From assembly GCF_003425985.1 (NCBI RefSeq), contig NZ_CP022985.1, forward strand, positions 3,704,001 to 3,768,000: a DNA stretch of 64,000 nt. Direction: 5' to 3'. The translations under genes and the position numbers were made by a program. Shown piece after piece: positions 33,255-62,523 of this stretch. The notes under the pieces were generated by a model. That model did not search any database, had not been told where the DNA came from, and was given only the letters and a program-made list of their open reading frames with translations. How positions within the stretch are numbered: the first letter of the stretch is position 1; every line of letters starts with the position of its first letter. This stretch comes from Mariniflexile sp. TRM1-10 (GTDB lineage Bacteria; Bacteroidota; Bacteroidia; Flavobacteriales; Flavobacteriaceae).

Positions 33255-34679
33255 ATGAAAAATCGAGTGTTATTAAAAACTGTTTTCGCACTATGTTTAT
33301 TTTTATTGTTAGCGTGTTCTTCCAATGGGCCTTCACAAGAAGAACAAATTGAAGAAAATCCAGAGACCCCGGAAAACCCAACAGATACAGGAATAACGCC
33401 TCCGGATGATTTTGACTATATTTTTGCAAAAAAACCAACTGACGGTAAAGCTGTTTATACACCAATAGAGTTAAAGGACAACGATTTCGATTCTAATGAT
33501 AGTAAATGGAGTTATCAAAGAAGTGCCTCGTCTGACAATGTTATTGTTTTTTGGGAGAAAGGATTTGGTCAATATCCAAGTAAGACTTCAAGACTCAACC
33601 TTCGTGTTGATATCAATAATCTATTAAAAATGGCGGAGGAATTTTATGTATATTATCGTGATGTCATGAAGTTTGTAGTAAAAGGAAATTCCAAAACAGA
33701 TAATTATAGAATGATAATACAATTATTTTATCAAGAAGAATGGTTGGCCACAGGAGCAGGTTATGATAATATTATAGGAGCCTTATGGATTAGTCCTGCA
33801 ACTACAAAAGGGGGAGCAGTTATAGCTCACGAGTTTGGACACTCTTTTCAATACCAAGTGCATTGTGATGGAAATTATGGATTTAGAGATCAACCATATG
33901 TCGGATCATTTTGGGAGCAATGTGCACAATTCATGTCTTGGCAACAAAATAATGAAGATTATGTAGGCGAACTACCTTATTTATTGGATAATATCCATAA
34001 AAACTTTTCGCATGAAGATATTAGATATCAATCCATGTATTTACAGGAATATTGGAAAGAAAAACACGGAGCGGATTTTTTAGGAAAACTTTGGAGAGGA
34101 GCATTAACACCAGAGCATCCCATTCAAGCCTACAAAAGAATCACCGAAATATCCCAAGAAAAATTTAATGATGAAGTTTTTGTATATGCTTCTAAAAATA
34201 TGACTTGGGATTACCCCTTAGGTATTTATAACAGAGATTATATAAAAAACTTATCTGCATCAGACTATATAAATTATAAACATGCAACAACTTTAGAACC
34301 TATTGCTGACGGGTATTATCAAATTTCCAGTAATCAAAGTCCACAACCTTATGGTTATAATGCCATAGAACTGAGTGTTCCTGTAGTAGGAACAACTGTT
34401 TCTGTAGATTTTGTAGGGTTAGATGGGGGCTATGCTAATGTAGAAGGATGGCGTTATGGTTTTGTGGCTGTAAAAGATGATAACACACCCGTGTATGGCG
34501 CTATGGAAAAAACTAAAGAAGGAGTAGCTTCTATAATAATACCAGCAAGTATAAAAACATTATGGCTAATTGTAACTGGAGCGCCTACAGAACATGTAAA
34601 CCACATTTGGGATGATGTTTCAACTAATGATCAGAACTTTCCATATAAAGTCAAGTTTACAAATACAGCTATTGAATAA
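33255..34679 (+). CDS. Predicted zinc metallopeptidase lipoprotein (DUF6055-like), copy 1
   Basis: The protein is a lipoprotein (lipobox LLLAC, Cys21) with a Pro/Glu/Thr-rich spacer (about 25-50). The central domain carries AHEFGHSFQ (His192, Glu193, His196) and 25 residues later SFWEQCAQFMSWQ with Glu221. This HExxH plus downstream Glu is a gluzincin-like zinc site. The C-terminal part (about 330-474) is a beta domain with GWRYGFVAVKDDNTPVYG. The whole chain is paralogous to the product of 61183-62523 in order and motifs. It resembles DUF6055 proteins. A role in cleaving glycosylated protein at the cell surface is inferred from the motif and from the surrounding glycosidase and prolyl peptidase genes. 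Confidence 0.78.
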   Translation: MKNRVLLKTVFALCLFLLLACSSNGPSQEEQIEENPETPENPTDTGITPPDDFDYIFAKKPTDGKAVYTPIELKDNDFDSNDSKWSYQRSASSDNVIVFWEKGFGQYPSKTSRLNLRVDINNLLKMAEEFYVYYRDVMKFVVKGNSKTDNYRMIIQLFYQEEWLATGAGYDNIIGALWISPATTKGGAVIAHEFGHSFQYQVHCDGNYGFRDQPYVGSFWEQCAQFMSWQQNNEDYVGELPYLLDNIHKNFSHEDIRYQSMYLQEYWKEKHGADFLGKLWRGALTPEHPIQAYKRITEISQEKFNDEVFVYASKNMTWDYPLGIYNRDYIKNLSASDYINYKHATTLEPIADGYYQISSNQSPQPYGYNAIELSVPVVGTTVSVDFVGLDGGYANVEGWRYGFVAVKDDNTPVYGAMEKTKEGVASIIIPASIKTLWLIVTGAPTEHVNHIWDDVSTNDQNFPYKVKFTNTAIE

Positions 34680-34691
34680 ACGATAATCATC

Positions 34692-34754
34692 AAAAAGCAA
34701 TATAAAATGACGTTTAGTTTGTCAGACAGACTTGTCGAAGCTCTAATTTTAAAA
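34692..34754 (+). repeat. 63-bp dispersed repeat, direct copy at 50275-50338
   Basis: The segment from AAAAAGCAATATAAAATGAC to CTAATTTTAAAA matches 50275-50338 with few changes, including the common core GACGTTTAGTTTGTCAGAC and CTTGTCGAAG. It starts 13 bases after the stop of the HExxH gene. Confidence 0.85.
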
Positions 34755-34866
34755 AACATCATTGCTAGCGTAGTCGAAAAGCCTTGACAATTTAATTAAT
34801 AAGGTTTTAGACTTTAGTTTGTCTTGAGGAAAGTCGAAATCAAACTGACATTAAAATTCACTTTAT

Positions 34867-35712
34867 TTAAAATCTTTCCAGTCTATAATGCGATGGAGTA
34901 ACACCTTTAATCTCTTTAAATTTTCTGTTGAAATTTGCCGTATTTTGAAAACCACATTGTTCTGAAATATACGAAATAGAATAATCTGGGTAATTATGAA
35001 TGAGTTTACAGGCATTTTCAATTCTTATTTCTATTAAAAACTGAAAAAACGTTTTGTTTGTACGTTTTTTAAAATAGCGGCAAAAAGCATTTTTACTCAT
35101 ATTTGCTATTTCCGAAATCTCTTCTAAGGTTATAGGTTCGGAGTAATTTTCCATGGCATAATTAAACACATCATTCATACGCTTTCCCTCGTCATCTGTA
35201 TATTTCTTTTTATAAACAAATGAGGAAAGTGCTATTTTTTCAGCCTTAATGATATGGTCTATGATTTTTATAAGTGTAGCTATACGTTGTACTTTGTTTT
35301 GATATTTTAACTTATGAAACTGCTTAATAAGTTTCTTTTTTCTTGATAAAACCCTTATGCCATAATCGGACTGATTAAAGAAATCATGAAAGCTTTCAAA
35401 GTCAGCGAGTCCAAAAAAGTCTTTGCCAAATGAATTTTTATCAAAAAATAAAGTATATACGTCTGTTATTTCAGAGAAATTAATATCGCTTCTAAACACA
35501 TGGGGTACATAGCCACCTAACACTAAAATATCGTTCGGCATAAAATCACTAATAGTATCTCCAACTAGTAATGTGCCTGCACCTTGTTCAACATAACTAA
35601 TTTGTATTTCACTATGTTGGTGAAACTGATCATATAGTACACTTAAGTGTTCTTCTTGATAAACTAATGCCTCATTTTCAGGCTTCGGAATTTTAAATGG
35701 AAGTACTTTCAT
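34867..35712 (-). CDS. AraC-family transcriptional regulator
   Basis: This is the only reverse-strand gene. Its 281 residues comprise an N-terminal cupin-like sensor domain (HQHSEIQISYVEQGAGTLLV, DILVLGGYVPHVF) and a C-terminal AraC/XylS DNA-binding domain with two helix-turn-helix motifs (about 185-281: ITLEEISEIANMSKNAFCRY, ISYISEQCGFQNTANFNRKF, GVTPSHYR). It is transcribed away from the hydroxyproline catabolic genes across a 355-base gap that holds a copy of the shared inverted-repeat motif. Local regulation of those genes is therefore likely. The effector could be hydroxyproline, a peptide or a sugar; that is not readable from the sequence. Confidence 0.92.
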   Translation of the reverse strand: MKVLPFKIPKPENEALVYQEEHLSVLYDQFHQHSEIQISYVEQGAGTLLVGDTISDFMPNDILVLGGYVPHVFRSDINFSEITDVYTLFFDKNSFGKDFFGLADFESFHDFFNQSDYGIRVLSRKKKLIKQFHKLKYQNKVQRIATLIKIIDHIIKAEKIALSSFVYKKKYTDDEGKRMNDVFNYAMENYSEPITLEEISEIANMSKNAFCRYFKKRTNKTFFQFLIEIRIENACKLIHNYPDYSISYISEQCGFQNTANFNRKFKEIKGVTPSHYRLERF

Positions 35713-35979: not shown

Positions 35980-36007
35980 GGGTAATATAGTATTACAATA
36001 GGCTAAT
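35980..36007 (+). promoter_or_regulatory. Candidate operator, copy 2 (before the hydroxyproline operon)
   Basis: GGGTAATATAGTATTAC then AATAGGCTAAT: the perfect inverted repeat GTAATA-TAG-TATTAC (35982-35996) is followed by GGCTAA. It ends about 31 bases upstream of the -7 box at 36038, a normal activator position, and lies in the gap shared with the divergent AraC gene. Confidence 0.7.
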
Positions 36008-36037
36008 AATTGTAATAAATTTTGTTATAGCAAGGTT

Positions 36038-36045
36038 TAAATTTG
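36038..36045 (+). promoter_or_regulatory. Bacteroidota -7 promoter box for the hydroxyproline operon
   Basis: TAAATTTG is an exact match to TAnnTTTG, 22 bases before the ATG at 36068. I find no -33 TTTG at the ideal distance, which would fit an activator-dependent promoter. Confidence 0.5.
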
Positions 36046-36067
36046 CATTTCTAAATTTATATATACA

Positions 36068-36982
36068 ATGATAAAATGGGAAGGCGTTATGCCAGCAGTC
36101 ACCACTAAGTTTACGAGTGACGATAAATTAGACCTTTTTATGTTTGAAAAAAACATTAAAGCTCAAATGGAATCAGGTGTACATGGAATTATTCTTGGAG
36201 GTACTCTGGGTGAAGCAAGTACACTTACACAAAATGAAAAGGAGATTTTAATTAAAGAGACATTATTAATTACAGACGGTAAAATTCCAGTAATTATTAA
36301 TATAGCTGAGCAAAGTACTGCAGATGCCATTGCTGTTGCTAGACATGCTGAATCTGTTGGCGCCCAAGGCCTCATGATTTTGCCTCCTATGCGTTATAAA
36401 GCAACAGATTTTGAAACTGTAACCTATTTTAAAGCCATAGCAAATAGTACGTCGTTGCCTATTATGATTTACAATAATCCCATAGATTATAAAATTGAAG
36501 TAACTTTGGATATGTTTGAAGACATGGCGGTTTGTGAAAACATTCAAGCAATAAAAGAATCAACTAGAGACATTACCAATGTCATTCGTTTAAAAAATAA
36601 ATTCGGTAATCGCTATAAAATTTTTACAGGAGTTGATACACTTGGTTTGGAAAGTTTAGTCATTGGTGCCGATGGATGGGTTGCAGGATTGGTATGCGCG
36701 TATCCCGCAGAAACAGTTGCTATTTACGAACTTGTTAAGGTGGGGAAAATTAAAGAGGCCATGGAGATCTATAGTTGGTTTATGCCATTATTGGAATTAG
36801 ATATTAGTCCACAATTAGTACAAAATATTAAATTAGCAGAAGTTGCTACTGGCATAGGAACTGAAAACGTAAGAGCACCCAGATTACCTTTACAAGGTGC
36901 GGAGAGAGCGCGTGTTTTAAATATAATTGAAACAGCTATGAAAAACAGACCTATATTACCAGATTACAAAAACTTAAAATAA
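36068..36982 (+). CDS. DHDPS/NAL-family lyase, probable pyrroline-4-hydroxy-2-carboxylate deaminase
   Basis: This is a 304-residue (beta/alpha)8 enzyme of the dihydrodipicolinate synthase family. The Schiff-base lysine is Lys163 in IQAIKESTRD, the conserved tyrosine lies in IMIYNNP, and the substrate-carboxylate loop is GGTLGEAST. Four genes on from here an aldehyde dehydrogenase, a hydroxyproline-type epimerase and a DadA-like oxidase complete the hydroxyproline pathway. The best fit is therefore conversion of 1-pyrroline-4-hydroxy-2-carboxylate to 2-oxoglutarate semialdehyde. An alternative in the same family is 2-keto-3-deoxy-L-arabonate dehydratase, which yields the same product from arabinose. 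A lysine-biosynthetic role is unlikely in this context. The next gene starts 2 bases after the stop. Confidence 0.85.
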   Translation: MIKWEGVMPAVTTKFTSDDKLDLFMFEKNIKAQMESGVHGIILGGTLGEASTLTQNEKEILIKETLLITDGKIPVIINIAEQSTADAIAVARHAESVGAQGLMILPPMRYKATDFETVTYFKAIANSTSLPIMIYNNPIDYKIEVTLDMFEDMAVCENIQAIKESTRDITNVIRLKNKFGNRYKIFTGVDTLGLESLVIGADGWVAGLVCAYPAETVAIYELVKVGKIKEAMEIYSWFMPLLELDISPQLVQNIKLAEVATGIGTENVRAPRLPLQGAERARVLNIIETAMKNRPILPDYKNLK

Positions 36983-36984: not shown

Positions 36985-38511
36985 ATGATTACAGGCAAAA
37001 ATTATATTGGAAACAAACCCAGTGCAAAAGGGAGTATTAGTCACAAAACTATAAATCCCATGCTAAATATTGAAAATTCAGTAGCCTTTGTTGAAGCACT
37101 TCCAGAAGAAATTGAGGAAGCTGTTCAACTAGCTACGCAGGCTTTTAAAACATTTAGAAAAGCATCTGGAAAACAAAGAGCTGAATTTCTAAATGCCATT
37201 GCAGATGAAATTTTAGCCTTGGACCAAGAGTTAATCGATGCCTATACAACAGAATCTGGCTTACCTGAAGGACGAGCCATAGGTGAACGAGGAAGAACCA
37301 TCATGCAATTAAAATCGTTTGCCGACTTGATCTCAAACGAAGATTGGAAAGCTAATACGTTTGACGCTGCCATACCCGATAGAACGCCGTTACCTAAAGA
37401 AGATTTAAGAAAAACGGTGATTCCCATAGGACCCGTGGTAGTATTTGGAGCAAGTAATTTCCCCTTTGCTTTTTCTACCGCTGGTGGTGATACCGCTAGT
37501 GCCTTAGCAGCAGGATGTCCTGTTATTGTAAAAGCACATGAAATGCATTCTGGTACATCTGAATTAGTAGCTACAGCCATTATTAAAGCTGCCGAAAAAA
37601 CAGGCATGCCAAATGGTGTGTTTTCACATCTTTTTGGTCGTGGGCCAGTGGTCGGTTCAGCATTGATTAACCACCCGAAAATTAAAGCAGTTGGCTTTAC
37701 GGGAAGCTTTGGAGCAGGTAGGGCCATTATGGATGCGGCTTCAAAACGCGAAGAACCCATTCCTGTTTATGCCGAAATGGGTAGTGTAAACCCCGTGGTT
37801 ATTACACCAAAAGCTATTGAAACCCGCGGTGAAGCCATTGCTAGTAGGTATGCAGGTTCCATTACTTTAGGAACGGGGCAATTTTGTACCAATCCGGGGT
37901 TATTATTAACCATTGCAAGTCATAAAACCGATGCTTTTGTTGAAGATTTAGCTAAAAAAACAATTGCTATTGAAGCCCAATGCATGTTGCATCCTAACAT
38001 TAAGGTAGGATTTGATAAAAATGGCGCTAGTGTAACTAATCAAGAAGGCGTAGAAACTGTGGCTAAAATTGGAGGTGAATTAAAGGATAATTTTGCTGCC
38101 TCACAAATTGTGACGGTTTCGGGAGCAGACTTTCTAGCAAACCCTAAAATCCACCAAGAAGTTTTTGGTCCGTTTTCTTTAGTTGTAAAAAGTAAGGATG
38201 AAGCACAATTGATTGAAATAATTGAAGCTTTGGAAGGCCAATTAACAGGAACAATAATAGCGGAAGAAAGTGACATTTCTAATTTAGAAGCTATAGCCGA
38301 TGCTTTAGCAAATCGTGTTGGTCGTGTTATTTTTAATGGTGTGCCAACAGGTGTAGAAGTTTGTCCTTCTATGCATCATGGAGGCCCTTACCCTGCATCA
38401 TCAAACCCCAAGTACACATCGGTAGGAACACATGCCATAAACAGATGGGTTAGGCCAATAAGTTATCAGTCGTTCCCTAAGGAATTACTCCCTGAATCGT
38501 TAAAAAGTTAA
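36985..38511 (+). CDS. 2-oxoglutarate semialdehyde dehydrogenase (NADP-type ALDH)
   Basis: This is a 508-residue aldehyde dehydrogenase of the ketoglutarate-semialdehyde group. The nucleophile is Cys301 in GTGQFCTNPGLL, the general base glutamate lies in YAEMGSVNP, the cofactor loop is GFTGSFGAGRAI, and VVFGASNFPFAFSTAGGDTA matches this subgroup rather than ordinary acetaldehyde dehydrogenases. The reaction is 2-oxoglutarate semialdehyde to 2-oxoglutarate, the last step of hydroxyproline catabolism and also of oxidative L-arabinose catabolism. It is almost fused to the DHDPS-family gene (2-base gap), which makes the semialdehyde. It is cytoplasmic. The following 322-base gap is filled with repeats. 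Confidence 0.9.
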   Translation: MITGKNYIGNKPSAKGSISHKTINPMLNIENSVAFVEALPEEIEEAVQLATQAFKTFRKASGKQRAEFLNAIADEILALDQELIDAYTTESGLPEGRAIGERGRTIMQLKSFADLISNEDWKANTFDAAIPDRTPLPKEDLRKTVIPIGPVVVFGASNFPFAFSTAGGDTASALAAGCPVIVKAHEMHSGTSELVATAIIKAAEKTGMPNGVFSHLFGRGPVVGSALINHPKIKAVGFTGSFGAGRAIMDAASKREEPIPVYAEMGSVNPVVITPKAIETRGEAIASRYAGSITLGTGQFCTNPGLLLTIASHKTDAFVEDLAKKTIAIEAQCMLHPNIKVGFDKNGASVTNQEGVETVAKIGGELKDNFAASQIVTVSGADFLANPKIHQEVFGPFSLVVKSKDEAQLIEIIEALEGQLTGTIIAEESDISNLEAIADALANRVGRVIFNGVPTGVEVCPSMHHGGPYPASSNPKYTSVGTHAINRWVRPISYQSFPKELLPESLKS

Positions 38512-38833: not shown

Positions 38834-39841
38834 ATGGCAAGAAAAACTTTTTTTTGTGTAGATGCTCACACGTGCGGAAATCCCGTGCGTGTTATTGCTG
38901 GTGGTGGTCCCAACCTTATTGGAAATACCATGAGTGAAAAACGCCAACATTTCCTTAAAGAATTCGATTGGATTCGTAAAGGATTGATGTTCGAACCGCG
39001 TGGGCATGACATGATGAGTGGCAGTATTTTATATCCACCACATCATCCTGAAAATGATTTTGCAATTCTATTCATAGAAACATCGGGGTGTTTGCCTATG
39101 TGTGGGCATGGAACCATAGGGACTATTACAATTGCTATTGAAGAAGGTCTAATTTCACCAAAAATACCTGGTAAAATAAAAATGGAAGCCCCTGCAGGAT
39201 TGGTAGAAATTGAATACCAACAAACAGGTAAAAAAGTAGATTGGGTTAAATTAGTAAACGTAAAATCCTATTTAGCTGCCGAAAAATTATCAGTTGAGTG
39301 CCCAGAACTTGGAGAAATATATTTTGATGTCTCTTATGGAGGCAATTACTATGCTATTGTAGATCCACAAAAAAACTTCAGTGGCATACAGGATTTTACA
39401 GCAGGCAAAATTGTACAATATTCGCAAATAGTAAGAACACGTATAAACGAAAAATACCCTGATATGTTTATTCATCCAGAAAATGATACCATTCGGGATG
39501 TAAGCCATATGCTATGGACAGGAGATTCTATAGACCCAACGTCGTCTGGAAGAAATGCCGTGTTTTATGGTGAAAAAGCTATAGACCGTTCACCTTGCGG
39601 AACAGGAACTTCTGCAAGAATGGCACAATTACATGCCCAAGGGAAACTAAAACTGGGTGAACCTTTTATTCATGAAAGTTTTATAGGCAGTAAATTCATT
39701 GGTAAAGTTGAAGCAGAAACAACTTTAGATGGTAAAAATGCCATAATTCCAAGTATTCAAGGTTGGGCTCAAGTGACTGGTTACAATACTATTATTATTG
39801 ACGACGACGATCCTTATGCATACGGGTTTCAAGTTGTTTAA
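38834..39841 (+). CDS. 4-hydroxyproline 2-epimerase (proline racemase family)
   Basis: The product is 335 residues, the usual size for the family. Both catalytic cysteines are present: Cys90 in PMCGHGTIG and Cys255 in RSPCGTGTSARMA. Two cysteines indicate a racemase or epimerase; trans-3-hydroxyproline dehydratases of the same family replace the second one with Thr. The N-terminus (FFCVDAHTCGNPVRVI) is also typical. The reaction is trans-4-hydroxy-L-proline to cis-4-hydroxy-D-proline, the entry step of the pathway encoded by its neighbours. Proline racemase activity cannot be excluded, but the context argues for hydroxyproline. It is cytoplasmic and flanked on both sides by text-like repeats. 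Confidence 0.92.
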   Translation: MARKTFFCVDAHTCGNPVRVIAGGGPNLIGNTMSEKRQHFLKEFDWIRKGLMFEPRGHDMMSGSILYPPHHPENDFAILFIETSGCLPMCGHGTIGTITIAIEEGLISPKIPGKIKMEAPAGLVEIEYQQTGKKVDWVKLVNVKSYLAAEKLSVECPELGEIYFDVSYGGNYYAIVDPQKNFSGIQDFTAGKIVQYSQIVRTRINEKYPDMFIHPENDTIRDVSHMLWTGDSIDPTSSGRNAVFYGEKAIDRSPCGTGTSARMAQLHAQGKLKLGEPFIHESFIGSKFIGKVEAETTLDGKNAIIPSIQGWAQVTGYNTIIIDDDDPYAYGFQVV

Positions 39842-40153: not shown

Positions 40154-41398
40154 ATGAAAAAAGTAGTTATAGTTGGTGGTGGCATTTCAGGTTTATGTAG
40201 TGCTTATTATTTAGTTAAGGAAGGACACTCTGTAACCGTTATAGATCAAAGCGATATAACTGCTGGCGCTTCATTTATTAATGCGGGTTATTTAACACCC
40301 AGTCATTTTATTCCGCTAGCAGCACCAGGTATTATTACCCAAGGTTTAAAGTGGATGTTAAATAGCTCGAGCCCCTTTTATATAAAACCACGTTTGGATT
40401 TTGATTTTTTTAAATGGGCATTATATTTTAAAAAATCAGCTACTAAAAATAATGTTGAAAAATCCATTCCTATTTTAAAGGAATTAAATTTAAAAAGTCA
40501 GCATCTATTTGAGGGCATGTTAGCATCTTTGGATTTTAATTTTCATTACGAAAAAAAAGGAATTCTCATGGCGTATAGCTCATCTAAAAATGAGGCAGAA
40601 GAGCATGAAATTGCAGAACGAGCTATTAAAGAAGGTTTAGATGTAACATGTTTAAATAAAGAAGAATTACACAAAATCCAACCGGTGCTTTCAGATCATG
40701 TCATTGGAGCTATTCACTATAAATGTGATTCGCATATGACGCCGAATCATTTTATGCTTACCATGAAAACATGGTTAGAAAATAATGGCGTCAAGTTTCA
40801 TACCAATCAAATAGTTGAAGATTTTACCATAAAAAATGATAAAATAGTGGCTGTAAAATCCGAAAACATTAATTTTATAGCAGATGAATTTGTTTTAGCT
40901 ATTGGAAGTTGGACATCAGCATTGGTATCAAAATTAAAGCTAAACATTCCCATTCAAGCAGGAAAAGGTTATAGTATGGATGTACACAGACCAACGGGTA
41001 TTACCATACCAACGATATTGATTGAAGCTAAAACTGCCATAACACCCATGGATAATTTTACCCGATTTGCTGGAACTATGGAGTTTTCCGGGAATAACAC
41101 CATCGTTAGAAAAGAACGCGTTGAAGCTTTGGCAAATGCCGTAAAAACATTTTATAAAGATATTGAAATTAATAACGAAGAGAAGGCAAAAGCGACTTCT
41201 GGATTAAGACCAGTATCTCCAGATGGGTTGCCTTTTATTGGCAAAACAAGTAAATACACCAACCTAACCATAGCAGCAGGGCACGCTATGATGGGTTGGA
41301 GCTTAGGCGCCATTACAGGACAGCTTGTTGCAGAGTTAGTTGATGGCAAAAAACCTTCAATAAATCTAGGTCCGCTTGCCCCAGAGCGTTTCAAATAA
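40154..41398 (+). CDS. DadA-like FAD oxidoreductase, probable cis-4-hydroxy-D-proline dehydrogenase
   Basis: This is a 414-residue FAD-dependent D-amino acid oxidase/dehydrogenase-type protein. The dinucleotide-binding motif is VVIVGGGISGLCSAYYLVK at the N-terminus, followed by SFINAGYLTPSH at the flavin site. GLRPVSPDGLPFIGKT and AAGHAMMGWSLGAITGQLVA near the C-terminus are typical of DadA and glycine-oxidase relatives. Between epimerase and peptidase genes it fits oxidation of cis-4-hydroxy-D-proline to 1-pyrroline-4-hydroxy-2-carboxylate, the substrate of the product of 36068-36982. D-proline or D-alanine remain possible alternative substrates. The next gene starts 18 bases later. Confidence 0.88.
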   Translation: MKKVVIVGGGISGLCSAYYLVKEGHSVTVIDQSDITAGASFINAGYLTPSHFIPLAAPGIITQGLKWMLNSSSPFYIKPRLDFDFFKWALYFKKSATKNNVEKSIPILKELNLKSQHLFEGMLASLDFNFHYEKKGILMAYSSSKNEAEEHEIAERAIKEGLDVTCLNKEELHKIQPVLSDHVIGAIHYKCDSHMTPNHFMLTMKTWLENNGVKFHTNQIVEDFTIKNDKIVAVKSENINFIADEFVLAIGSWTSALVSKLKLNIPIQAGKGYSMDVHRPTGITIPTILIEAKTAITPMDNFTRFAGTMEFSGNNTIVRKERVEALANAVKTFYKDIEINNEEKAKATSGLRPVSPDGLPFIGKTSKYTNLTIAAGHAMMGWSLGAITGQLVAELVDGKKPSINLGPLAPERFK

Positions 41399-41416: not shown

Positions 41417-42628
41417 ATGAGTAAATTCGGAATAGGAGGTTCAACCATAGAAGCAGAATTAAATGCTATAAAACCAGTCGCACATGTAATAAAACCTATT
41501 CAAGAAGCAGAATACAAAAGCAGAATACAAAAGGCATGCGAACTTATGAAACTGCAAAATGCCCAAGCTATGTATTTAAATGCGGGAACAAATTTACTTT
41601 ACTTTACAGGAACACATTGGCATGCTAGCGAACGTATGGTAGGTGCCATTTTATTACCTAATGGCGATTTGCATTACATCGTTCCTAGCTTTGAAAAAGG
41701 CACCCTTTTAGATTTCATGGCCATAGAAGGTGAAATTCATTGCTGGGAAGAACATGAAAGTCCGTATCTGCTTTTGAACAATATACTTAAAGAAAACAAC
41801 ATATTAGAAGGTGATATTTTAATTGACGAAAGCACGCCTTTCTTTGTTTATGAGGGCATTTCTAAAGCTACAGGTTTAAATATTGAAAACGCACATACAG
41901 TAATTTCAGAATGTCGAATGATTAAATCTGAAGCTGAAATAGCCATTATTAAAGCCCTCATGGATATTACTTTAGAAGTTCACAAAGCTACCGCAAGAAT
42001 TTTAAAAGTAGGCATCACAACTAAAGAAATTGAAGATTTTATTAATGAAGCCCACAAACGTTACGGTATGATCTCTGGTTCTTATTTTTGTATTGTTTTA
42101 TTCGGAAAAGACGCCTCGTTTCCACATGGTGTTAAAACCCCAAAACCACTGGAATTAAACGATATCGTTTTGGTAGATACAGGTTGTTCGTTTCACGATT
42201 ATATTTCAGATATTACCAGAACCTATATTTTTGGTGAGGCCAACGATTACCAACAAAAAATTTGGAACATCGAAAAAGAAGCACAATTAGCTGCTTTTAC
42301 GGCATCACAAATGGGGCTTACCTGTGGTGATGTAGATCTGGCTGCAAGAGAAAAAATAGCATCTTACGGTCTTGGACCAGATTATAATCTTCCGGGATTA
42401 CCACATCGAACAGGTCATGGCATAGGTTTGGATATTCATGAGTATCCTTATATCTTAAAAGGAAATAAAACTATTTTAAAACCAGGTATGTGTTATAGTA
42501 TTGAACCCATGATTTGTGTGCCATCCGAATTTGGTATTCGTTTGGAAGACCATGTTTACATAACTAAAGATGGTCCAAAATGGTTTACGGAACCAGCACA
42601 TTCTATCGAAAACCCATTTGGTAATTGA
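41417..42628 (+). CDS. M24-family peptidase, Xaa-Pro dipeptidase (prolidase)-like
   Basis: This is a 403-residue cytoplasmic enzyme of the M24 pita-bread fold without a signal peptide. An N-terminal creatinase-like domain (about 30-170) precedes the catalytic half. The dinuclear metal ligands are readable in order: Asp in VLVDTGCSFHDY, Asp in ISDITRTY, His in HRTGHGIGLDIHE, Glu in YSIEPMICV and Glu in GIRLEDHVY. M24B enzymes cut dipeptides or peptides with proline (or hydroxyproline) in the second position. It stands between the hydroxyproline oxidase and a DPP-IV-type peptidase, so it probably releases free hydroxyproline or proline from imported dipeptides. Confidence 0.88.
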   Translation: MSKFGIGGSTIEAELNAIKPVAHVIKPIQEAEYKSRIQKACELMKLQNAQAMYLNAGTNLLYFTGTHWHASERMVGAILLPNGDLHYIVPSFEKGTLLDFMAIEGEIHCWEEHESPYLLLNNILKENNILEGDILIDESTPFFVYEGISKATGLNIENAHTVISECRMIKSEAEIAIIKALMDITLEVHKATARILKVGITTKEIEDFINEAHKRYGMISGSYFCIVLFGKDASFPHGVKTPKPLELNDIVLVDTGCSFHDYISDITRTYIFGEANDYQQKIWNIEKEAQLAAFTASQMGLTCGDVDLAAREKIASYGLGPDYNLPGLPHRTGHGIGLDIHEYPYILKGNKTILKPGMCYSIEPMICVPSEFGIRLEDHVYITKDGPKWFTEPAHSIENPFGN

Positions 42629-42952
42629 ATCTTCGTTTTAGCTTCTAGGTGTTTAAATAGTTAAATAAAAAAAAGATAACATTGCAAAGCCTTAGTTTCA
42701 AACTTTGAACTTTGAACATCAAACCCACGTTTAAAGGGCTTTTTAGACAGTCTCATAAATTTGCTGTCATTGAGTCTATATTCTATTTTCTTTATTCTAT
42801 TTTCTTTTAGAATACGGTCTAGAATCTTTTTCAAGGAGGTTTATATTAAAATTACACATAATCACACGTTAATATGCTGTTAAGGGTAATATACTATTAC
42901 TTTCGGCTAACTTTAAACCATAACTGTTTGTAGATAATATTTATTTTTATAA
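42629..42952 (+). other. 324-base gap with promoter region of the S9 peptidase gene
   Basis: No gene seen. The first 200 bases are low-complexity (AAACTTTGAACTTTGAAC and TTCTATTTTC-type runs). A weak AAAGCC/GGCTTT hairpin with T tail (about 42687-42746) may terminate the upstream operon. The shared operator motif is at 42884. Confidence 0.55.
42884..42911 (+). promoter_or_regulatory. Candidate operator, copy 3 (before the S9 peptidase gene)
   Basis: GGGTAATATACTATTAC then TTTCGGCTAA: inverted repeat GTAATA-TAC-TATTAC (42886-42900) with GGCTAA downstream, 42 bases before the ATG at 42953. TAACTTTA overlapping the end resembles a -7 box. Confidence 0.7.
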
Positions 42953-55537: not shown

Positions 55538-55854
55538 AAAGAAAACCCATACAGAACATATTTTATAGCGCTTTTAAATTTAGGTTAATATAATATCAAT
55601 ATCGGCTAATTTATAATAACCTAAAAGCTTATATAATTAGTAAACTTGTATAAAATGTTTGAAAAGTCTTATATAAAAATGACCTATACAAATTGCTTTC
55701 GATATTTAAATTCGAATAAATTATCAAAACACGTAGGGTAATCAGATTACAAATCATCGTAAAAATAATTTTAGGATGTTTTTACTCCTAACTGGGCTTT
55801 AACTTTTCATTGCATAAACATTTAACAATAAGAATAAATTTAAACGAAAAAATT
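55538..55854 (+). other. 317-base gap, promoter region of the BNR-repeat gene
   Basis: No gene or strong hairpin seen. It contains the fourth copy of the shared motif (55583) and then about 245 AT-rich bases of leader. The reading frame of the next gene is open back to a TTG at 55810, but the ATG at 55855 opens on the hydrophobic signal. Confidence 0.6.
55583..55610 (+). promoter_or_regulatory. Candidate operator, copy 4 (before the BNR-repeat gene)
   Basis: GGTTAATATAATATCAATATCGGCTAAT begins with TAATA-TAA-TATCA (55586-55598), one mismatch from the inverted repeat of the other copies, with GGCTAA at the same distance. The sequence is given here only in parts: GGTTAATATAATATC and ATCGGCTAAT. 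Confidence 0.6.
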
Positions 55855-58800
55855 ATGCCAAAATCAGTAGCAAAAATAATATTGTTTTTAGTAATCAGTA
55901 TCTCAGTTTTTTTATGGCTAAAACCATTTGAAAATGAAATCAGTATGAAAAATGAACGCCGAGAAACCGGTGGAAAAGAAGCCCAGGAATTTTTTGAGCA
56001 AATGATCCGTAACCCTAAAACCGGAAAAATACCTATAGAGAGTTTGGTAAGCATAAGCAATAAAATGCAGAAGGATGCTCGCTCTAGCAGAAAAGCAAAT
56101 TTGTCAAAAGGCGTGGCTACAACTATTTGGCAAGAAAGAGGGGGTTCCAATATTCAAGGGCGTTTAAAATGTATCATGATAGATAAGCGAGATGCAACAG
56201 GAAACACATTAATAGTGGGTAGTGATACAGGAGGGTTATGGAAAACCACTAATGCCATGAGCAATGATCCTACATGGCATCCCATTAATGATTTTATGAG
56301 TTTTCTTCATACACAAAGTGTCTTTCAGAATCCTGCTAATTTAAATGAAATATACTGCACTACAGGAAACATCAGCTGGGTTAGTCCTGAAACTGCTGGA
56401 GTTGGGCTTTATAAATCAACAGATGGCGGTGACACATGGAATCATTTAGCTGCTACCAATAATGGAAATTTCAAACATTCAGGGAACGTTGTGGTAAATT
56501 CCTCAGGAATAATTTTTGTTGCTACCCATGAAGGTGGCGTACAACGTTCTTCTAATGGAGGCTTAACATGGAGTAAGGTATTAGGAAGTGGCGTAGGTGG
56601 CGGAACTACAAATCAAATACTAGATTTAGATTTAGCAACAAACGGAACGCTTTATGCTACAGCTAAGGACAAAAAAGTATATAAATCATCGGATAACGGT
56701 AATAGCTGGACCAATATATCCATTCCTGGATTAACAACAAACGATTATTTAATAAGGCTTGCCGTAGCACCTTCAGACCCTAATAAAGTATATGCATTTG
56801 TAGAATGGTCAAAAAACTTCCTTTCCACCAATGGCGGTGTCAGTTGGACTAGAGTCGGCGATATGAGTATTAATACCTATGGAAGCTCAGATGGATGTAT
56901 TACTATGGAGGTGGACCCGAACAATTCCAATAGAATTTATGCTGGTGGCATTAACTACAATGCTTCAAGTGATTCTGGTACTAGCTGGTCTAGAATTACA
57001 GGTTACGAAGTGCATGTTGATGCACATGCCATCACCTTCTTAAATTCCAATGTCGCATTTATAGGTAATGATGGAGGGATTTATAGAACGGATAACGCTT
57101 CATCAACCAACCCAACTTTTAAGTTTATTGGTAACGGTTTGAATACGCTTCAATATTATAATATTGATATTCACCCTGAAACCTATAAAGATTATTTCTT
57201 GGGTGGCACCCAAGACAATGGCACCCAAAGATCTATAGGTGCTGGTATTACCTCATCTGAAAATGTTTTAGGTGGAGATGGTGGCTTTGCTTTTATTGAT
57301 GAAGACCAACCAAATATTCAGATAGCAGCATACCAAAATGAAGGAGGAGCATACACAACAGATAATTGGAATTCATCTAAATATGTAGGTTATGCTCCTG
57401 TAAATCAAGCTTATTTTATAACACCTAAAGATTATGATGATGTAAACAACAGATTGTATACCTGTATGAGTATTGCAAATTCATATTCAGTTACCACTGG
57501 CATTGGCATTGTAGACCCTGTTACTGTTTCCACTAAAACCATTAATGCAATGAATGGAGGAAGTGCCACATGCGCCATGGTATCACCAAATGATCCAAAC
57601 ATTGTTTATTTTGGTTGTGGTAACGGAGCATTGGTTAAGGTCGTCAATCCAACTGCAACAACGCCAACTGCGACAAGAATAATGGATGGTGCCTATGGAT
57701 GGATATCCAGTATAGCTGTAGAGCCAGGAAATGAAAACCATATTATTGCCACCTATAGCAGTTTTGGTGTCAATCATATTGTTGAAACAAAAAATGGAGG
57801 AAATAGCTGGATGAATATTTCTAATAATTTTCCTGATATGCCTGTTTATAATGGTATTTTTGCTCCAAACGATACTAATAAGTTTATTCTTGCTACCCAT
57901 CTTGGGGTATGGATGACTGAAAATCTTAACGGTGCCAATACAAATTGGGTATCTTTTAATGATGGGTTGTCCAATGTTATCGTTCGTATGGTAAAAGCAA
58001 GAAAATCTGATGGTGTGGTGGTAGCAGGAACCCATGGTCGAGGACTATTCACTACCAATTATTTTTTACAGTCAGATATTGCTCCTTCTACTCCAGGTAC
58101 CGTATTTGCTACAAATGCAACCAGTACAATTCTTTCATTAACATGGGAAGCTTCTATTGATGATCTTGCTGTTACAGGATATGATGTCTATGACGGCACC
58201 ACTCTTTTAGCCTCTGTGAACACCAATTCTGCTGAAATAACAGGATTATCCCCAGATACAACTTACTCGTTAACTGTTAAGGCCAAAGATGGTCAAGGCA
58301 ATATTTCCAGTCCAAGTTCGCCAGCTTTGATAACAACTGCAGCAACAAATAGCATGTCATCCAATATTGCTTTAAAAGCTTCAAACGTAACAACTTCATT
58401 TGTGTCTGGATGGGAGTCCCTAGCAGCCGTTAATGATGGATTTACGCCTACAAATTCAGGAGATAGAACCCATAGCGTCTATGGGAATTGGGATACCCAC
58501 AATACGTTTCAATGGGTTCAATATGACTGGTCTCAAAACTATGAAATAACATCTGTTGAATTATACTGGTTTACGGATAATGGTGGGATTTTAATTCCTA
58601 CAGAAGCTTTTGTTGAATATTATAATGGCTCTGCTTGGGTAAAACTTGCTGATGTTACTTTAAACGCCAACCAATTTAACATAGCAACTTTTAATACGAT
58701 AACTGCAAGTAATATGAGGGTGTCTATGAAAAATACGACGCAGTCTACTGGGATTATAGAATTTAGGGTTATTGGCAAGATAGCGTCTGGTAATATGTTA

Positions 58801-59082
58801 TCTAAACTAAGTTTGTCTAAAAAATTAACAAAATCAGTTTCGGTTTATCCCAATCCTACCAGCGATAAAATTACACTAAGACTTGGTGACCTTGCTACTT
58901 CAGGGCAATTAAATTTAAGCATTTTAGATGTGTCTGGGAAATTGATTTGGTCTAAAAAAACAGAAGGGAAAAACGAAATATCATTGTATACACAAGACAT
59001 GAAATTAAGTAAGGGTATTTATTTACTTCGAGTTAGTAACACAGAAGTGGTTCAAACTATTAAAATTGTAATTTCTAGGTAA
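55855..59082 (+). CDS. BNR/sortilin-type propeller protein with FnIII, discoidin-like and type IX domains
   Basis: This is a 1075-residue protein that starts with a hydrophobic signal (MPKSVAKIILFLVISISVFL). Residues about 95-735 are a propeller with at least seven Asp-box/BNR motifs (STDGGDTWNHL, SSNGGLTWSKV, SSDNGNSWTNI, STNGGVSWTRV, TKNGGNSWMNI), as in sortilin-type and GH74-like proteins. FnIII (about 739-830) and the discoidin-like module (about 835-973, WVQYDWSQNYEITSVELYWF) follow, then a type IX sorting domain (VYPNPTSDKITLRLGDL). It may be a glycosidase or a binding protein; no catalytic acids can be assigned. It shares the discoidin-like module with the surface lipoprotein at 27016. 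Confidence 0.85.
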   Translation: MPKSVAKIILFLVISISVFLWLKPFENEISMKNERRETGGKEAQEFFEQMIRNPKTGKIPIESLVSISNKMQKDARSSRKANLSKGVATTIWQERGGSNIQGRLKCIMIDKRDATGNTLIVGSDTGGLWKTTNAMSNDPTWHPINDFMSFLHTQSVFQNPANLNEIYCTTGNISWVSPETAGVGLYKSTDGGDTWNHLAATNNGNFKHSGNVVVNSSGIIFVATHEGGVQRSSNGGLTWSKVLGSGVGGGTTNQILDLDLATNGTLYATAKDKKVYKSSDNGNSWTNISIPGLTTNDYLIRLAVAPSDPNKVYAFVEWSKNFLSTNGGVSWTRVGDMSINTYGSSDGCITMEVDPNNSNRIYAGGINYNASSDSGTSWSRITGYEVHVDAHAITFLNSNVAFIGNDGGIYRTDNASSTNPTFKFIGNGLNTLQYYNIDIHPETYKDYFLGGTQDNGTQRSIGAGITSSENVLGGDGGFAFIDEDQPNIQIAAYQNEGGAYTTDNWNSSKYVGYAPVNQAYFITPKDYDDVNNRLYTCMSIANSYSVTTGIGIVDPVTVSTKTINAMNGGSATCAMVSPNDPNIVYFGCGNGALVKVVNPTATTPTATRIMDGAYGWISSIAVEPGNENHIIATYSSFGVNHIVETKNGGNSWMNISNNFPDMPVYNGIFAPNDTNKFILATHLGVWMTENLNGANTNWVSFNDGLSNVIVRMVKARKSDGVVVAGTHGRGLFTTNYFLQSDIAPSTPGTVFATNATSTILSLTWEASIDDLAVTGYDVYDGTTLLASVNTNSAEITGLSPDTTYSLTVKAKDGQGNISSPSSPALITTAATNSMSSNIALKASNVTTSFVSGWESLAAVNDGFTPTNSGDRTHSVYGNWDTHNTFQWVQYDWSQNYEITSVELYWFTDNGGILIPTEAFVEYYNGSAWVKLADVTLNANQFNIATFNTITASNMRVSMKNTTQSTGIIEFRVIGKIASGNMLSKLSLSKKLTKSVSVYPNPTSDKITLRLGDLATSGQLNLSILDVSGKLIWSKKTEGKNEISLYTQDMKLSKGIYLLRVSNTEVVQTIKIVISR

Positions 59083-59215: not shown

Positions 59216-61177
59216 ATGAAAACAATACCATGCTTCTGTATCTCTATTTTATTAGTAATTGTTCACCAGGTATCAGCGCAACACTATGACATCAAATCTC
59301 CAGATGGTAACATACAAATAAGGGTTGATAATTCAGATACGATTCTGTGGTCTGCTTCCCTAAACGGAAACACTATTATTGAGAAAGCAGAAATGGGTAT
59401 GGATTTTTCTTCCCATACGGATTTCGGAACAAATCCAAATGTCAAGAAACATACTATTAAAAGTGTCTCCGAAACCATATATCCTGTAGTTTCCCATAAA
59501 GATTCTAAAATAAAAGACGAATACACAGAACTGTCAATAACCTATCGCGGGCATTACAAACTCAACTTTCGCGCCTATAATGATGGTGTGGCTTATCAAT
59601 TTATAGATGAAGCAAAAGCAAAACGACAGGTCATTTCAGAAAACGTATCACTGAGGTTTCCCGAAGGTACCAAATCACTCTTTCCTCAAGAGGAATCTAT
59701 GTATTCCCACAACGAACGCTTGTATTTAGATAAATCCCTACCCGAAATTGCTCCCAATGAGTTTTGTAGCCTTCCCGTTTTATTTATAACAGACAAGGTA
59801 AAGGTGTTATTTACGGAAACAGCGCTTCACGATTATCCCGGTCTGTTTTTAAAAGGTAGCGGAAGTACGACTTTAAATGCGGTATTTCCAAAATACGTAT
59901 TGGAAGCTGTTGATAAAGATGGTCGTTCAGACCGTGTGCAAACTATTACTAAGGAAGCAGATTATATTGCAGAAGTTTCAGGAAACAGAGACTATCCATG
60001 GCGTGTTTTTGTTATTACGGACGACGATCGGAAATTGGTAGAAAGCAATTTAACCTATCAGTTAGCGAAACCCAATGTTCTAAAAAATACAGACTGGATA
60101 AAACCCGGTAAAGTCGCTTGGGATTGGTACAATGCCAACAACATTTACGGTGTCGATTTTAAAGCAGGCTTAAATACCGCTACTTATAAGTATTACATAG
60201 ATTTTGCTTCAAAAAACAACATAGAATATGTTATTCTGGATGAAGGCTGGACAAAATCGACCACCGATATCCTTCATTTTAATCCCGATATGGATATCAA
60301 GGAATTAATAAAATACGGTGAGGAAAAAGGTGTTGGTATCATCCTTTGGGTACTTTGGAAACCACTTGACGAAAACCTTATGGAAATTCTTGAAACCTAT
60401 AAAAGTTGGGGTGCAAAAGGTATTAAAATTGATTTTATGCAACGCAATGATCAATACATGGTAAACTCTTACGAGCAAATTGCAAAAGCCTGTGCTGAAC
60501 TTGAGCTATTGGTAGATTTCCATGGTGCGTTTAAACCTTCAGGATTACGACGTATGTATCCAAATGTGGTTAATTATGAAGGCGTAAGAGGCAATGAAAA
60601 CAACAAATGGAGTGAAGACATTACGCCCGAACATACCGTGACCATTCCTTTTATTCGTATGGTTGCTGGTCCTATGGACTTTACGCCCGGTGCAATGATA
60701 AATAAACAAGCAAAAAATTATGCCATTAGTTTTGAGCGCCCCATGAGTTTAGGTACTAGAGCCCATCAAGTTGCCATGTATGTGGTGTACGAAGCACCGT
60801 TGCAGATGCTATGCGAATCGCCATCAACTTATTACAAAGAGCAGGAAACGGTAGATTTTATAACCCAAATTCCAACCACTTGGGACGAAACGATAGTGCT
60901 TCATGGCTCTGTAGGCAATTATATCGTGGTCGCCAGAAGACATGGGGATATTTGGTATGTTGGGGGAATGACCGATGCCGATGCAAGGGCCTTACCAATT
61001 GATTTAGCATTCTTAGGAGAGGGCTCTTTTAATATGGAACTATTTAAGGATGGTGCCAATGTAGATAGATTTGCCCAGGACTATAGCATAGAAACAGTAT
61101 CTGTAAATAAAAACACAAAAGTTACAGCAAATATGGCTTCAGGTGGCGGATGGTCTGCCATAATTACTAAAAAGTAG
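59216..61177 (+). CDS. GH97-family glycosidase (retaining type: alpha-galactosidase or beta-L-arabinopyranosidase)
   Basis: This is a 653-residue secreted enzyme (signal to about VSAQ). The GH97 N-terminal beta domain (about 20-280, SPDGNIQIRVDN, PWRVFVITDDDRKLVES), the barrel (about 290-560, WDWYNANN, YVILDEGW) and a C-terminal beta domain are all present. Asp406 in GIKIDFMQ corresponds to the nucleophile of retaining GH97 enzymes, and Glu455/Glu461 in NYEGVRGNE are acid/base candidates. The presence of that Asp points away from the inverting SusB type. Known retaining members are alpha-galactosidases and beta-L-arabinopyranosidases. In extensins serine carries alpha-galactose, so an alpha-galactosidase would fit the locus. 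The HExxH gene follows after 5 bases. Confidence 0.92.
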   Translation: MKTIPCFCISILLVIVHQVSAQHYDIKSPDGNIQIRVDNSDTILWSASLNGNTIIEKAEMGMDFSSHTDFGTNPNVKKHTIKSVSETIYPVVSHKDSKIKDEYTELSITYRGHYKLNFRAYNDGVAYQFIDEAKAKRQVISENVSLRFPEGTKSLFPQEESMYSHNERLYLDKSLPEIAPNEFCSLPVLFITDKVKVLFTETALHDYPGLFLKGSGSTTLNAVFPKYVLEAVDKDGRSDRVQTITKEADYIAEVSGNRDYPWRVFVITDDDRKLVESNLTYQLAKPNVLKNTDWIKPGKVAWDWYNANNIYGVDFKAGLNTATYKYYIDFASKNNIEYVILDEGWTKSTTDILHFNPDMDIKELIKYGEEKGVGIILWVLWKPLDENLMEILETYKSWGAKGIKIDFMQRNDQYMVNSYEQIAKACAELELLVDFHGAFKPSGLRRMYPNVVNYEGVRGNENNKWSEDITPEHTVTIPFIRMVAGPMDFTPGAMINKQAKNYAISFERPMSLGTRAHQVAMYVVYEAPLQMLCESPSTYYKEQETVDFITQIPTTWDETIVLHGSVGNYIVVARRHGDIWYVGGMTDADARALPIDLAFLGEGSFNMELFKDGANVDRFAQDYSIETVSVNKNTKVTANMASGGGWSAIITKK

Positions 61178-61182
61178 AAACT

Positions 61183-62523
61183 ATGGAAACCATTGTAAAA
61201 GCCTGTATGGTTTTTTTCTTAGCAATTATTGGTATGTATGCACAAGAAGAAAATGATAAGAAAGCATTATACATTCCTGCTAAGGTTTGGCGTGTTCCAG
61301 AAAATAATAATTATGATAGTGCTGAAAGCGCTTATAGCTACAGCCGTATGGTGGAATCAGAAAATATAGCCATGTTTTGGCATAAAGAGTATGGTGAGCA
61401 TCCTATGGCTAATATAGACACGACCCGACGTTTTGACCCTGAAACAGCACTCATAGAATGTGAGCGCTTTTATAACTTTTACGTCAATGATTTAAAATTG
61501 GTAGAAAAAGGGCATTCCATAAGTGATAGATACAAATTACTGATATATGTTTTTGGAGGGGATGAAAACACCGCTTTTGGAGGTGGCGAGGAAGAAAAAG
61601 TCGGTATTTTATGGACCCCTGCAACACGAATAAACAAACCCCCTTATGGAGCATTAGCTCATGAAATTGGTCACTCATTTCAATACATGAGTCGTGTTGA
61701 TAGTAAAACGGGACCTAGAGGGCCGGTTATGGAAATGTCTGCACAATATATGTTATGGCAGGTATACCCAGAATGGATGACTTTTGAAAATTATCATCTC
61801 AAGGATTTTCTAAAAGGCACACATTATGCATTTTTACATCCTGCAAATATGTATCATGCCCCTTATGTGCTTGAATATTGGTCCCATAAATATGGGATAG
61901 AATTCTGGGGTAAATTAAGCAGATCAACCCAAGAAGGTGAAGATGCCGTTACCACTTATAAGCGCATCAATAACTTAACACAAGAACAATTTAATGACGA
62001 CATGTTTGATGCTTCCCGAAAATTTATTACTTGGGATTTAAAACGAATAGAAGAGGTAGCTAAGCCATATGCCAATCAGCATATAAGCCAATTTAATGAT
62101 GTGGGAGATGGTTGGTATCAAATAGACGCTAGCAATTGCCCTCAAAACTATGGGTATAATGGTATAAAACTGCATGTGCCAAAAGCAGGAACCAACATCC
62201 AATTACGTTTTAAAAGCATTTTAGACGCTAAAGGTTACAACGTAGTTAGAGCAGATAGTGCTGGATGGCGTTACGGCTTTTTAGCCTCTTTAAAGGATGG
62301 TACTAGAATTTACGGAGATGTTCATAAAGACCCAGAAGGTGTTGTGGAATTTAAAGTCCCGGAAAACACGGCGTATTTATGGTTGGTTGTTATGGGAGCA
62401 CCTAAAGAACACTGGGTGTTGCCGGCACGCTGGGGAGAACACAAATCTGAAGAGCCTGATGCTCAATGGCCTTATAAAATTAAATTGGTGGGTACGGCAT
62501 TAGATGCTTCTAGCTTGAAATAA
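61183..62523 (+). CDS. Predicted secreted zinc metallopeptidase (DUF6055-like), copy 2
   Basis: This is a 446-residue paralogue of the product of 33255-34679, but with an ordinary signal peptide (to about MYAQ) instead of a lipobox. The site is AHEIGHSFQYM (His160, Glu161, His164) with Glu184 in PVMEMSAQYMLWQ 20 residues later. Shared segments with copy 1 include YKRINNLTQEQFNDDMF, AGWRYGFLASLKDGTRIYG, LWLVVMGAPKEH and WPYKIKLVGTA. It starts 5 bases after the GH97 stop, so it is co-expressed with a glycosidase. One copy anchored and one soluble suggests division of labour at surface and periplasm. Peptidase activity is predicted only from the motif. Confidence 0.8.
   Translation: METIVKACMVFFLAIIGMYAQEENDKKALYIPAKVWRVPENNNYDSAESAYSYSRMVESENIAMFWHKEYGEHPMANIDTTRRFDPETALIECERFYNFYVNDLKLVEKGHSISDRYKLLIYVFGGDENTAFGGGEEEKVGILWTPATRINKPPYGALAHEIGHSFQYMSRVDSKTGPRGPVMEMSAQYMLWQVYPEWMTFENYHLKDFLKGTHYAFLHPANMYHAPYVLEYWSHKYGIEFWGKLSRSTQEGEDAVTTYKRINNLTQEQFNDDMFDASRKFITWDLKRIEEVAKPYANQHISQFNDVGDGWYQIDASNCPQNYGYNGIKLHVPKAGTNIQLRFKSILDAKGYNVVRADSAGWRYGFLASLKDGTRIYGDVHKDPEGVVEFKVPENTAYLWLVVMGAPKEHWVLPARWGEHKSEEPDAQWPYKIKLVGTALDASSLK

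Follow-up and report, generated by a model that had tools for sequence, protein, structure and literature searches.

A candidate utilisation regulon for hydroxyproline-rich glycoproteins in Mariniflexile sp. TRM1-10, with glycosidases, Svx-related peptidases and hydroxyproline catabolism behind one operator motif

Extensins and other hydroxyproline-rich glycoproteins (HRGPs) make up a large, cross-linked share of plant and green-algal walls. In Bacteroidota, polysaccharide utilisation loci (PULs) are defined by SusC/SusD pairs, carbohydrate-active enzymes (CAZymes) and a nearby regulator. In the present work, a 64-kb stretch of the 4.86-Mb single-contig genome of Mariniflexile sp. TRM1-10 (NZ_CP022985.1, positions 3,704,001 to 3,768,000; hereafter the window, with coordinates counted from its first letter) was analysed. 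It contains a locus with SusC/SusD pairs, CAZymes and a nearby regulator, as in a PUL; unlike a PUL, the regulator is of the AraC family and the putative regulon takes in peptidases and amino acid catabolism. A first-pass annotation of the same DNA stated that amino acid catabolism is no part of ordinary PULs, which has to be qualified, as the collagen-utilisation cluster of Colwellia is a near-precedent (PMC7883544).

To judge from the available text, this Colwellia cluster is the nearest published parallel: an extracellular protease, a TonB receptor, a Pro/Hyp dipeptidase and 4-hydroxyproline (4-Hyp) catabolism are brought together for a Hyp-rich protein. However, its substrate is collagen, with an M9 collagenase, and the part of the paper available describes no glycosidases, SusD or shared operator. 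The HypAA-HypBA1-HypBA2 systems of Bifidobacterium longum and Xanthomonas resemble the window locus in combining GH43 with GH127/GH146 for Hyp-linked arabino-oligosaccharides (PMC6085000, PMC7263609), and in Xanthomonas a (broken) prolyl oligopeptidase gene lies next to the system. In contrast, these systems use GH121 and, as far as the available sections go, are described for sugar use only, with neither Hyp catabolism nor a peptidase of the Svx type. Svx of Pectobacterium is a gluzincin peptidase related to DUF6055 and cleaves extensin (PMC9266454, PMC13164431, PMC10815107), but it is presented there, in the accessible portions, as a single virulence factor and not as a nutrient locus. For Latescibacteria, an in silico study (PMC4454575) proposed that these bacteria use algal HRGPs by means of GH127; it is a genome-wide inventory whose available text describes neither a locus nor an operator nor a Hyp pathway. 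In the literature searched, with most subscription papers outside reach, there was no account of a single locus or regulon that unites glycosidases for HRGPs with Svx-type peptidases and Hyp catabolism, and no bacterial locus was described as using both HRGP sugars and hydroxyproline. The parts are already known; their combination in one locus or regulon, and the shared operator, appear to be new.

The utilisation locus spans approximately 16.6–62.5 kb of the window. What was observed is the set of genes, their conserved linkage and co-occurrence, and a motif shared by the upstream regions of five transcription units; on this basis the region is quite probably a utilisation regulon for beta-L-arabinosylated HRGPs, extensin-type, of plants or green algae. 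Extensin-type HRGPs are favoured as the substrate, with arabinogalactan-protein (AGP) or algal HRGPs also possible; substrate and enzyme specificities are predicted from sequence. All genes named in the first-pass annotation are intact open reading frames (ORFs) with family matches at 33255–62523. These bounds were too narrow: the locus was extended leftwards because the SusC/SusD pairs and the BT_3987-like and FG-GAP genes at 17071–32658 are syntenic in genome G206 and partly in G438, and because an operator site precedes SusC1.

The regulator proposed for the regulon is an AraC-family protein (34867–35712, minus strand; all other genes and sites of the locus given below are on the plus strand) recognised by Pfam, and its gene also stands as a divergently oriented neighbour in the 11 further linked genomes that were compared. 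The AraC–DHDPS intergenic regions have a 35-bp motif in common, gGgTAATATAGTATtAtaaTaaGcTAATAAttAta. A position weight matrix (PWM) was trained on 20 AraC-side sites without the window, G206 and locus L138; DHDPS sites from 8 of the 11 linked genomes, DHDPS sites from 11 of the 29 named loci counted below, and two DPP-IV sites, from u176 and L157, were part of the training, and the other DPP-IV sites and the GH146, SusC and DUF6055 sites were outside it. The five top scores in the 64 kb, both strands considered, belong to site 1 at 35980–36014 (39.6), between the AraC gene and the hydroxyproline operon; site 2 at 16613–16647 (28.8), an exact pattern match upstream of the SusC/SusD operon, at a distance of 423 bp from the annotated start of SusC; site 5 at 55583–55617 (21.3), upstream of VPS10-GH97-DUF6055b; site 3 at 32972–33006 (21.3), upstream of DUF6055a, a position that it also occupies in G206 and L138; and site 4 at 42884–42918 (20.7), upstream of DPP-IV-GH146-DUF885. 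All five are intergenic and precede DHDPS, SusC1, VPS10, DUF6055a and DPP-IV, respectively, and the next score is 12.8. Since the maxima of simulated windows were 20.0 (200 first-order) and 20.8 (60 third-order), the weakest site, by itself, borders on chance, and the set of five does not. Because the same operator precedes SusC, DUF6055a, the hydroxyproline operon, DPP-IV-GH146 and VPS10-GH97-DUF6055b, the functions of deglycosylation, uptake, proteolysis and breakdown of hydroxyproline appear to form a single regulon.

A short pattern composed after viewing the five window sites, TAATATANTATN8GNTAA, matched the window at five places but had no match in any of 100 dinucleotide shuffles; genome-wide there were six matches, five in the locus and the sixth inside an ORF. 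The longer consensus with up to two mismatches had four genome matches, three of them in the locus. Of the 11 other linked genomes, all have the site upstream of DHDPS, 8 upstream of SusC, 2 upstream of a DUF6055 gene and one, G206, upstream of a GH2 gene; among the 10 in which DPP-IV adjoins GH146, 9 have it upstream of DPP-IV. A second set, the best 80 of 353 named loci with flanks of up to 10 kb, came from scanning the collection with the alignment of GH146 sequences. These 80 loci contained 85 sites scoring at least 15, of which 83 were within 300 bp upstream of locus genes (DHDPS in 29 loci, DPP-IV in 31, GH146 in 13, SusC in 4 and DUF6055a in 1), whereas 12 column-permuted decoy matrices gave 0–6 hits. 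The site also precedes GH146 in Flavobacterium clusters with no Hyp genes in the flank (L139, L149, L152 and L160). On three contigs of G515 it stands before an Svx-like/SusCD locus (26.4), GH146 (21.4) and the Hyp operon (24.6), and in G434 before an Svx-like/DUF5695/SusCD locus (26.8) and before the Hyp locus on a separate contig.

Several results weigh against such a regulon. With up to three mismatches, the longer consensus had 11 genome matches, only three of them in the locus, and the reversed control had 5. No site scoring at least 15 was found for the GH146 genes of G285, G464 and G095, or in four of six Svx-like loci (L075–L078). Among plain Hyp operons, the site is present before DHDPS at 15 or more in 4 of 16 and at 13 in two more, and so the operator may be an older Hyp operator. 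A stronger version of this view, in which the motif is an ancestral hydroxyproline-operon site, its remaining matches are promoter elements common to AT-rich Flavobacteria in general, and no joint regulon exists, could also draw on the A+T-rich motif and on the weakest window score lying within the range of the null maxima; given the five of six genome-wide matches in the locus, the empty shuffles, and the position of 83 of the 85 sites in front of locus genes against the decoy counts, it is highly improbable. The presence of the regulator and site at plain Hyp operons makes hydroxyproline or a derivative the simplest inference for the effector. Binding of the motif by the AraC protein, and the direction of regulation, are likewise presumed.

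Linkage of the two gene sets was surveyed at the family level in 397 Flavobacteriaceae genomes. A GH146 orthologue, called at E ≤ 1e-100, was present in 18 of them. DUF6055 was over its cut-off in 13, at E < 1e-100 in 10 and at E ≤ 0.001 in 23; matches at E < 1e-100 were termed strong, a threshold picked after the match list had been viewed. All 10 genomes with a strong DUF6055 match fall among the 18 with a GH146 orthologue (9/9 genera; Fisher 1.8e-15, with genomes treated as independent though they are related). HypE, the 4-hydroxyproline 2-epimerase, was found in 214 of the 397 genomes and in 17 of the 18 with GH146, one having no HypE match. In 10 of these 17, representing 9 genera, GH146 and HypE are on one contig with a gap of less than 10 kb, the chance expectation being approximately 0.5% per genome. 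The idea that the two sets always occur separately in other flavobacterial genomes therefore fails, and the proposal of the first-pass annotation that glycan removal and backbone catabolism form one system is supported by the conserved linkage and the shared operator. In G438, a contig break lies between DPP-IV and GH146, and its linkage, inferred across the break, is outside the count of 10; G143 was obtained from an order-level search (3/148 over the DUF6055 cut-off) and is not among the 397.

The gene order kept across other genera is AraC(−), DHDPS, ALDH, HypE, DAO, (M24), DPP-IV, GH146, DUF885, DUF5695, GH43, with gaps in single genomes. Swaps at the same predicted step were found, namely, GH36 for GH97 in G002 and G143, and an alpha-L-AF_C enzyme (labelled here as GH51-type) for GH43 in G245 and G262. 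In the collection, 35 of the best 80 of 353 named GH146 loci have HypE in the flank (32 of the 65 with full flanks), and 25 have all four Hyp enzymes. The HypE-linked loci among them belong to Flavobacterium (11), Allomuricauda (11), Flagellimonas (4), Wenyingzhuangia (2) and Salegentibacter (2), with one each in Confluentibacter, Sinomicrobium, Pedobacter, Sphingobacterium and Flavisolibacter; gene orders differ in Pedobacter antarcticus, Sphingobacterium olei and a Flavisolibacter metagenome-assembled genome. A HypE tree of 60 rows (44 linked, 16 unlinked; all named rows linked by design) needs four label changes, of which the starred branches force at least three, and linkage thus arose or disappeared repeatedly, gains not being distinguishable from losses. 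The locus is also patchy within the genus, since the same-genus genomes G275 and G458, both among the 397, have no HypE, GH146 (E ≤ 1e-100) or DUF6055 match.

Other counts go in the opposite direction. Hyp operons are common without glycosidase or DUF6055 genes, as the 214 genomes with HypE indicate; GH146 lies apart from HypE in 6 of 17 genomes; and 45 of the best 80 named GH146 loci have no HypE in the flank (15/80 flanks being incomplete). One may then suppose that the peptidases and Hyp catabolism serve collagen, gelatin or free hydroxyproline, and that a pectic-arabinan PUL adjoins them by chance. The wide occurrence of HypE, the similar back half of the Colwellia collagen cluster (PMC7883544) and the action of BT0349 on arabinan-derived sugars (PMC10850190) would agree with this, but the recurrent adjacency in 9 genera, the operator common to both halves and the 10/10 co-occurrence of DUF6055 with GH146 render it improbable. 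The M9 collagenase profile had no match in the window genome, although control genomes gave none either. A chance neighbourhood was rejected on the grounds of linkage and operator; a plain collagen locus and an ordinary arabinan PUL were rejected as well.

As for the glycosidases of the proposed HRGP regulon, the protein encoded at 45431–48490, with LamG and Big_4 N-terminal domains, had been called GH127. A GH127 catalytic domain is indeed present, but the structure matches were 5opj (presumably BT0349) at 218 bits, the GH146 enzyme Bll3HypBA1 (8k7y) at 132 bits and the GH127 enzyme HypBA1 (3wkw) at 40 bits, and this predicted beta-arabinofuranosidase is accordingly closer to GH146 than to GH127. 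The Zn ligands of Bll3HypBA1 are E723, C725, C804 and C805 (PMC10850190); the GH146 Zn-site E-x-C ... CC is present in the window protein as E748, C750, C818 and C819, invariant in 15 sequences. I522 of the beta1,3-specific Bll3HypBA1 aligns with the invariant W559 of the window enzyme (a 378-residue offset fixed by E723), and 5opj carries Trp at the matching position, most likely the W162 named in PMC10850190. Because W559 replaces I522 and 5opj shares the Trp, a BT0349-like beta1,2-type site appears to be favoured over a beta1,3 one. Hydrolysis of beta-L-arabinofuranose (beta-L-Araf) is predicted. A Xanthomonas GH146 enzyme chiefly cleaves Araf-beta-Hyp (PMC10850190).

The GH43 protein (53369–55537; F5/8C and LamG domains by Pfam; PDB 5msx, E 1.5e-39) is a putative alpha-L-arabinofuranosidase. 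GH97 (59216–61177) had been read as an alpha-galactosidase or a beta-L-arabinopyranosidase. According to family and structure matches, it is closest to retaining alpha-galactosidases (5e1q/3a24, E ~1e-164; next group, E 2e-65), which makes the second option less likely, and its score is below the NCBIfam cut-off for retaining alpha-galactosidase NF053844 (735.2 vs 800 bits). An alpha-galactosidase is not universal in the linked loci: among the 11 other linked genomes, five have GH97 (G206, G438, G262) or GH36 (G002, G143), G519 holds a 26%-identical GH97, and none was recognised in the remaining five, where unmatched ORFs were scanned in part. DUF5695 (50428–53115; family match 1316 bits), with a putative PL27-like fold, is proposed as a candidate CAZyme family. 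The fold of PL27 combines a beta-sandwich with an (alpha/alpha)6 barrel.

The nearest fold of DUF5695 acts on arabinogalactan protein. Sister loci encode beta-galactosidases (GH2 in G206, G284 and G438; GH42 in G002), and the G519 locus continues with arabinofuranosidase-type, GH43, GH30, GH127 and GH97 genes and an FGGY kinase. The beta-galactosidases and GH30 of these loci, together with the DUF5695 fold, point beyond extensin, and it is possible, though rather unlikely, that the regulon serves AGPs or green-algal HRGPs and that extensin is not the main food. Against this, the Pfam scan of the window locus showed no GH30, GH16 or GH2; its GH146 has Trp where the AGP-active, beta1,3-specific enzyme has Ile; and its peptidases are Svx-related. 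The same scan gave no match labelled GH121.

Three predicted metallopeptidases had been listed; they are present, and two could be specified as members of DUF6055, the Svx family. These are DUF6055a (33255–34679; Pfam 513 bits; LLLAC lipobox-like N-terminus) and DUF6055b (61183–62523; Pfam 451 bits). The gluzincin HExxH...E signature is kept in both (HEFGH 192–196/E221 and HEIGH 160–164/E184), and the predicted structure of DUF6055a is a gluzincin fold. Svx cuts carrot extensin, not mucin or concanavalin A (PMC13164431, 2026), and since DUF6055 is the Svx family, these proteins add a candidate endopeptidase for the extensin-type backbone. They are to be regarded as DUF6055 relatives of Svx, not as Svx: the scores with the Svx model NF040510 were 89.6 and 55.4 bits against a cut-off of 625, and the matches extend only to positions 445 and 419 of 601, i.e., the peptidase part (positions 66–445 or less). 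Both proteins differ from Svx in the absence of the C-terminal acyltransferase-like domain, without which Svx loses extensin cleavage (PMC13164431). With this domain absent and no GH121-labelled match, the earlier statement that the gene set matches each bond of extensin was too strong. DUF6055-containing proteins of homologous loci match the Svx model over a longer region (G002, 213 bits over 39–557; G365, 217 bits over 64–532) and end in a type IX secretion system (T9SS) tail; additional matches, to acyltransferase models such as GlmU in G365 and to the YdcK model in G002, make them consistent with the Svx architecture. In G438, the DUF6055b copy (L065, 12535–13488) stops at an in-frame TAG and is apparently broken.

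The other peptidases are a DPP-IV/S9 dipeptidyl peptidase (42953–45244; Pfam), a DUF885 metallopeptidase-like protein (48498–50204; Pfam 167.9 bits; HELLPGH motif at 387) and an M24 prolidase-like peptidase (41417–42628; Pfam 190.6 bits), with no signal peptide seen by eye at its N-terminus. Upstream of the locus, at 1607–9391, M28 and M16 peptidases are encoded with thioredoxin-like DUF4369 proteins, and a relative of the M28 protein (41–44%) is found near 6 of 16 plain Hyp operons of other genomes.

The 4-Hyp pathway uses enzymes of the 4HypE, DAAO, DHDPS and ALDH families (PMC4113996). In the window, HypE (38834–39841) passes the equivalog test (NF010578, 589 bits, cut-off 376) and has both active-site cysteines, Cys90 and Cys255. 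The functions of the other three are assigned provisionally: the DHDPS-family protein (36068–36982; Pfam 193.6 bits) as the Pyr4H2C deaminase, by the 4HypE neighbourhood rule in the available text of PMC4113996; the aldehyde dehydrogenase (36985–38511; Pfam) as alpha-ketoglutarate semialdehyde (alpha-KGSA) dehydrogenase, its best NCBIfam match being 2,5-dioxovalerate/alpha-KGSA dehydrogenase, far below the cut-off; and the FAD oxidoreductase (40154–41398; Pfam DAO 198 bits) as cis-4-hydroxy-D-proline dehydrogenase. An amino acid permease adjoins the Hyp genes in G002 and G143. In G206 and G365, a DHDPS-family enzyme of a different subtype (L064, 10165–11115, and the matching L070 gene; 28–29% identity to that of the window) has been swapped in. 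An L-arabinose isomerase gene is located elsewhere in the window genome, at 981690.

The left part of the locus encodes the TonB-dependent receptor SusC1 (17071–20274; Pfam Plug, TonB barrel and CarbopepD_reg_2; 88% in G206 and 60% in G438, same locus), SusD1 (20261–22063; Pfam SusD; 90% in G206), a SusC2-like TonB-dependent receptor (22057–25122) and SusD2 (25305–26990; Pfam SusD; 91% in G206). The SusC2-like assignment is based on position, an 84% orthologue in G206 and a weak Plug match (20.8 bits, below the cut-off of 23.9). A SusC/SusD pair with co-located CAZymes, as in a PUL, is thus present, the second SusC being weakly matched. These pairs are in the same locus of G206 (84–91%) and G438, and most other linked genomes hold a different SusCD pair. 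They are followed by a BT_3987-like surface lipoprotein (27016–28467; Pfam PF08522) and a T9SS-secreted FG-GAP/vanadium-chloroperoxidase-like protein (28510–32658; Pfam), the BT_3987-like and FG-GAP proteins also being syntenic in G206, at 71%. The latter protein, encoded 42 bp past the last gene of the SusCD operon and kept in G206, fuses FG-GAP repeats, ASPIC/UnbV and a vanadium-chloroperoxidase-like region. At the right end, a VPS10/sortilin-like propeller with fn3 and F5/8C domains and a T9SS tail (55810–59082; Pfam/NCBIfam; 74% in G365) precedes GH97. Adjoining the locus, a YqcI/YcgG protein (63257–63925) matches GntA, the pre-guanitoxin N-hydroxylase (283.7 bits, cut-off 145); none of the five operator sites precedes its gene.

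According to the proposed mechanism, surface SusC/SusD and secreted or lipoprotein DUF6055 peptidases would capture and cut the glycoprotein. GH43 would then take alpha-Araf, GH146 beta-L-Araf, GH97 alpha-Gal, and DUF5695 a further linkage, with arabinose entering a pathway encoded elsewhere in the genome. DPP-IV, DUF885 and the cytoplasmic prolidase may break Hyp peptides down to free hydroxyproline, which the epimerase, D-Hyp dehydrogenase, deaminase and semialdehyde dehydrogenase would convert to 2-oxoglutarate. The divergent AraC protein, probably responding to hydroxyproline or a derivative, would turn on the units via one operator.

More tentatively, the system may be one of backbone sensing throughout Bacteroidota, in which AraC senses Hyp or a derivative and induces SusCD importers, Svx-related peptidases, arabinosidases and Hyp catabolism, and DUF5695 is an unrecognised family of HRGP-glycan enzymes. 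Its range would then run from Flavobacterium strains whose names refer to plant roots to Allomuricauda, and would include loci dispersed over a genome but tied by the operator.

If the HRGP reading is true, these loci would be markers for HRGP turnover in nature and would provide a nutritional setting for relatives of Svx, known from plant disease, and DUF5695 would be a candidate new enzyme family. The operator makes the regulon reading directly testable. In such a system, the amino acid of a glycoprotein, and not its sugar, would signal for the glycan enzymes.

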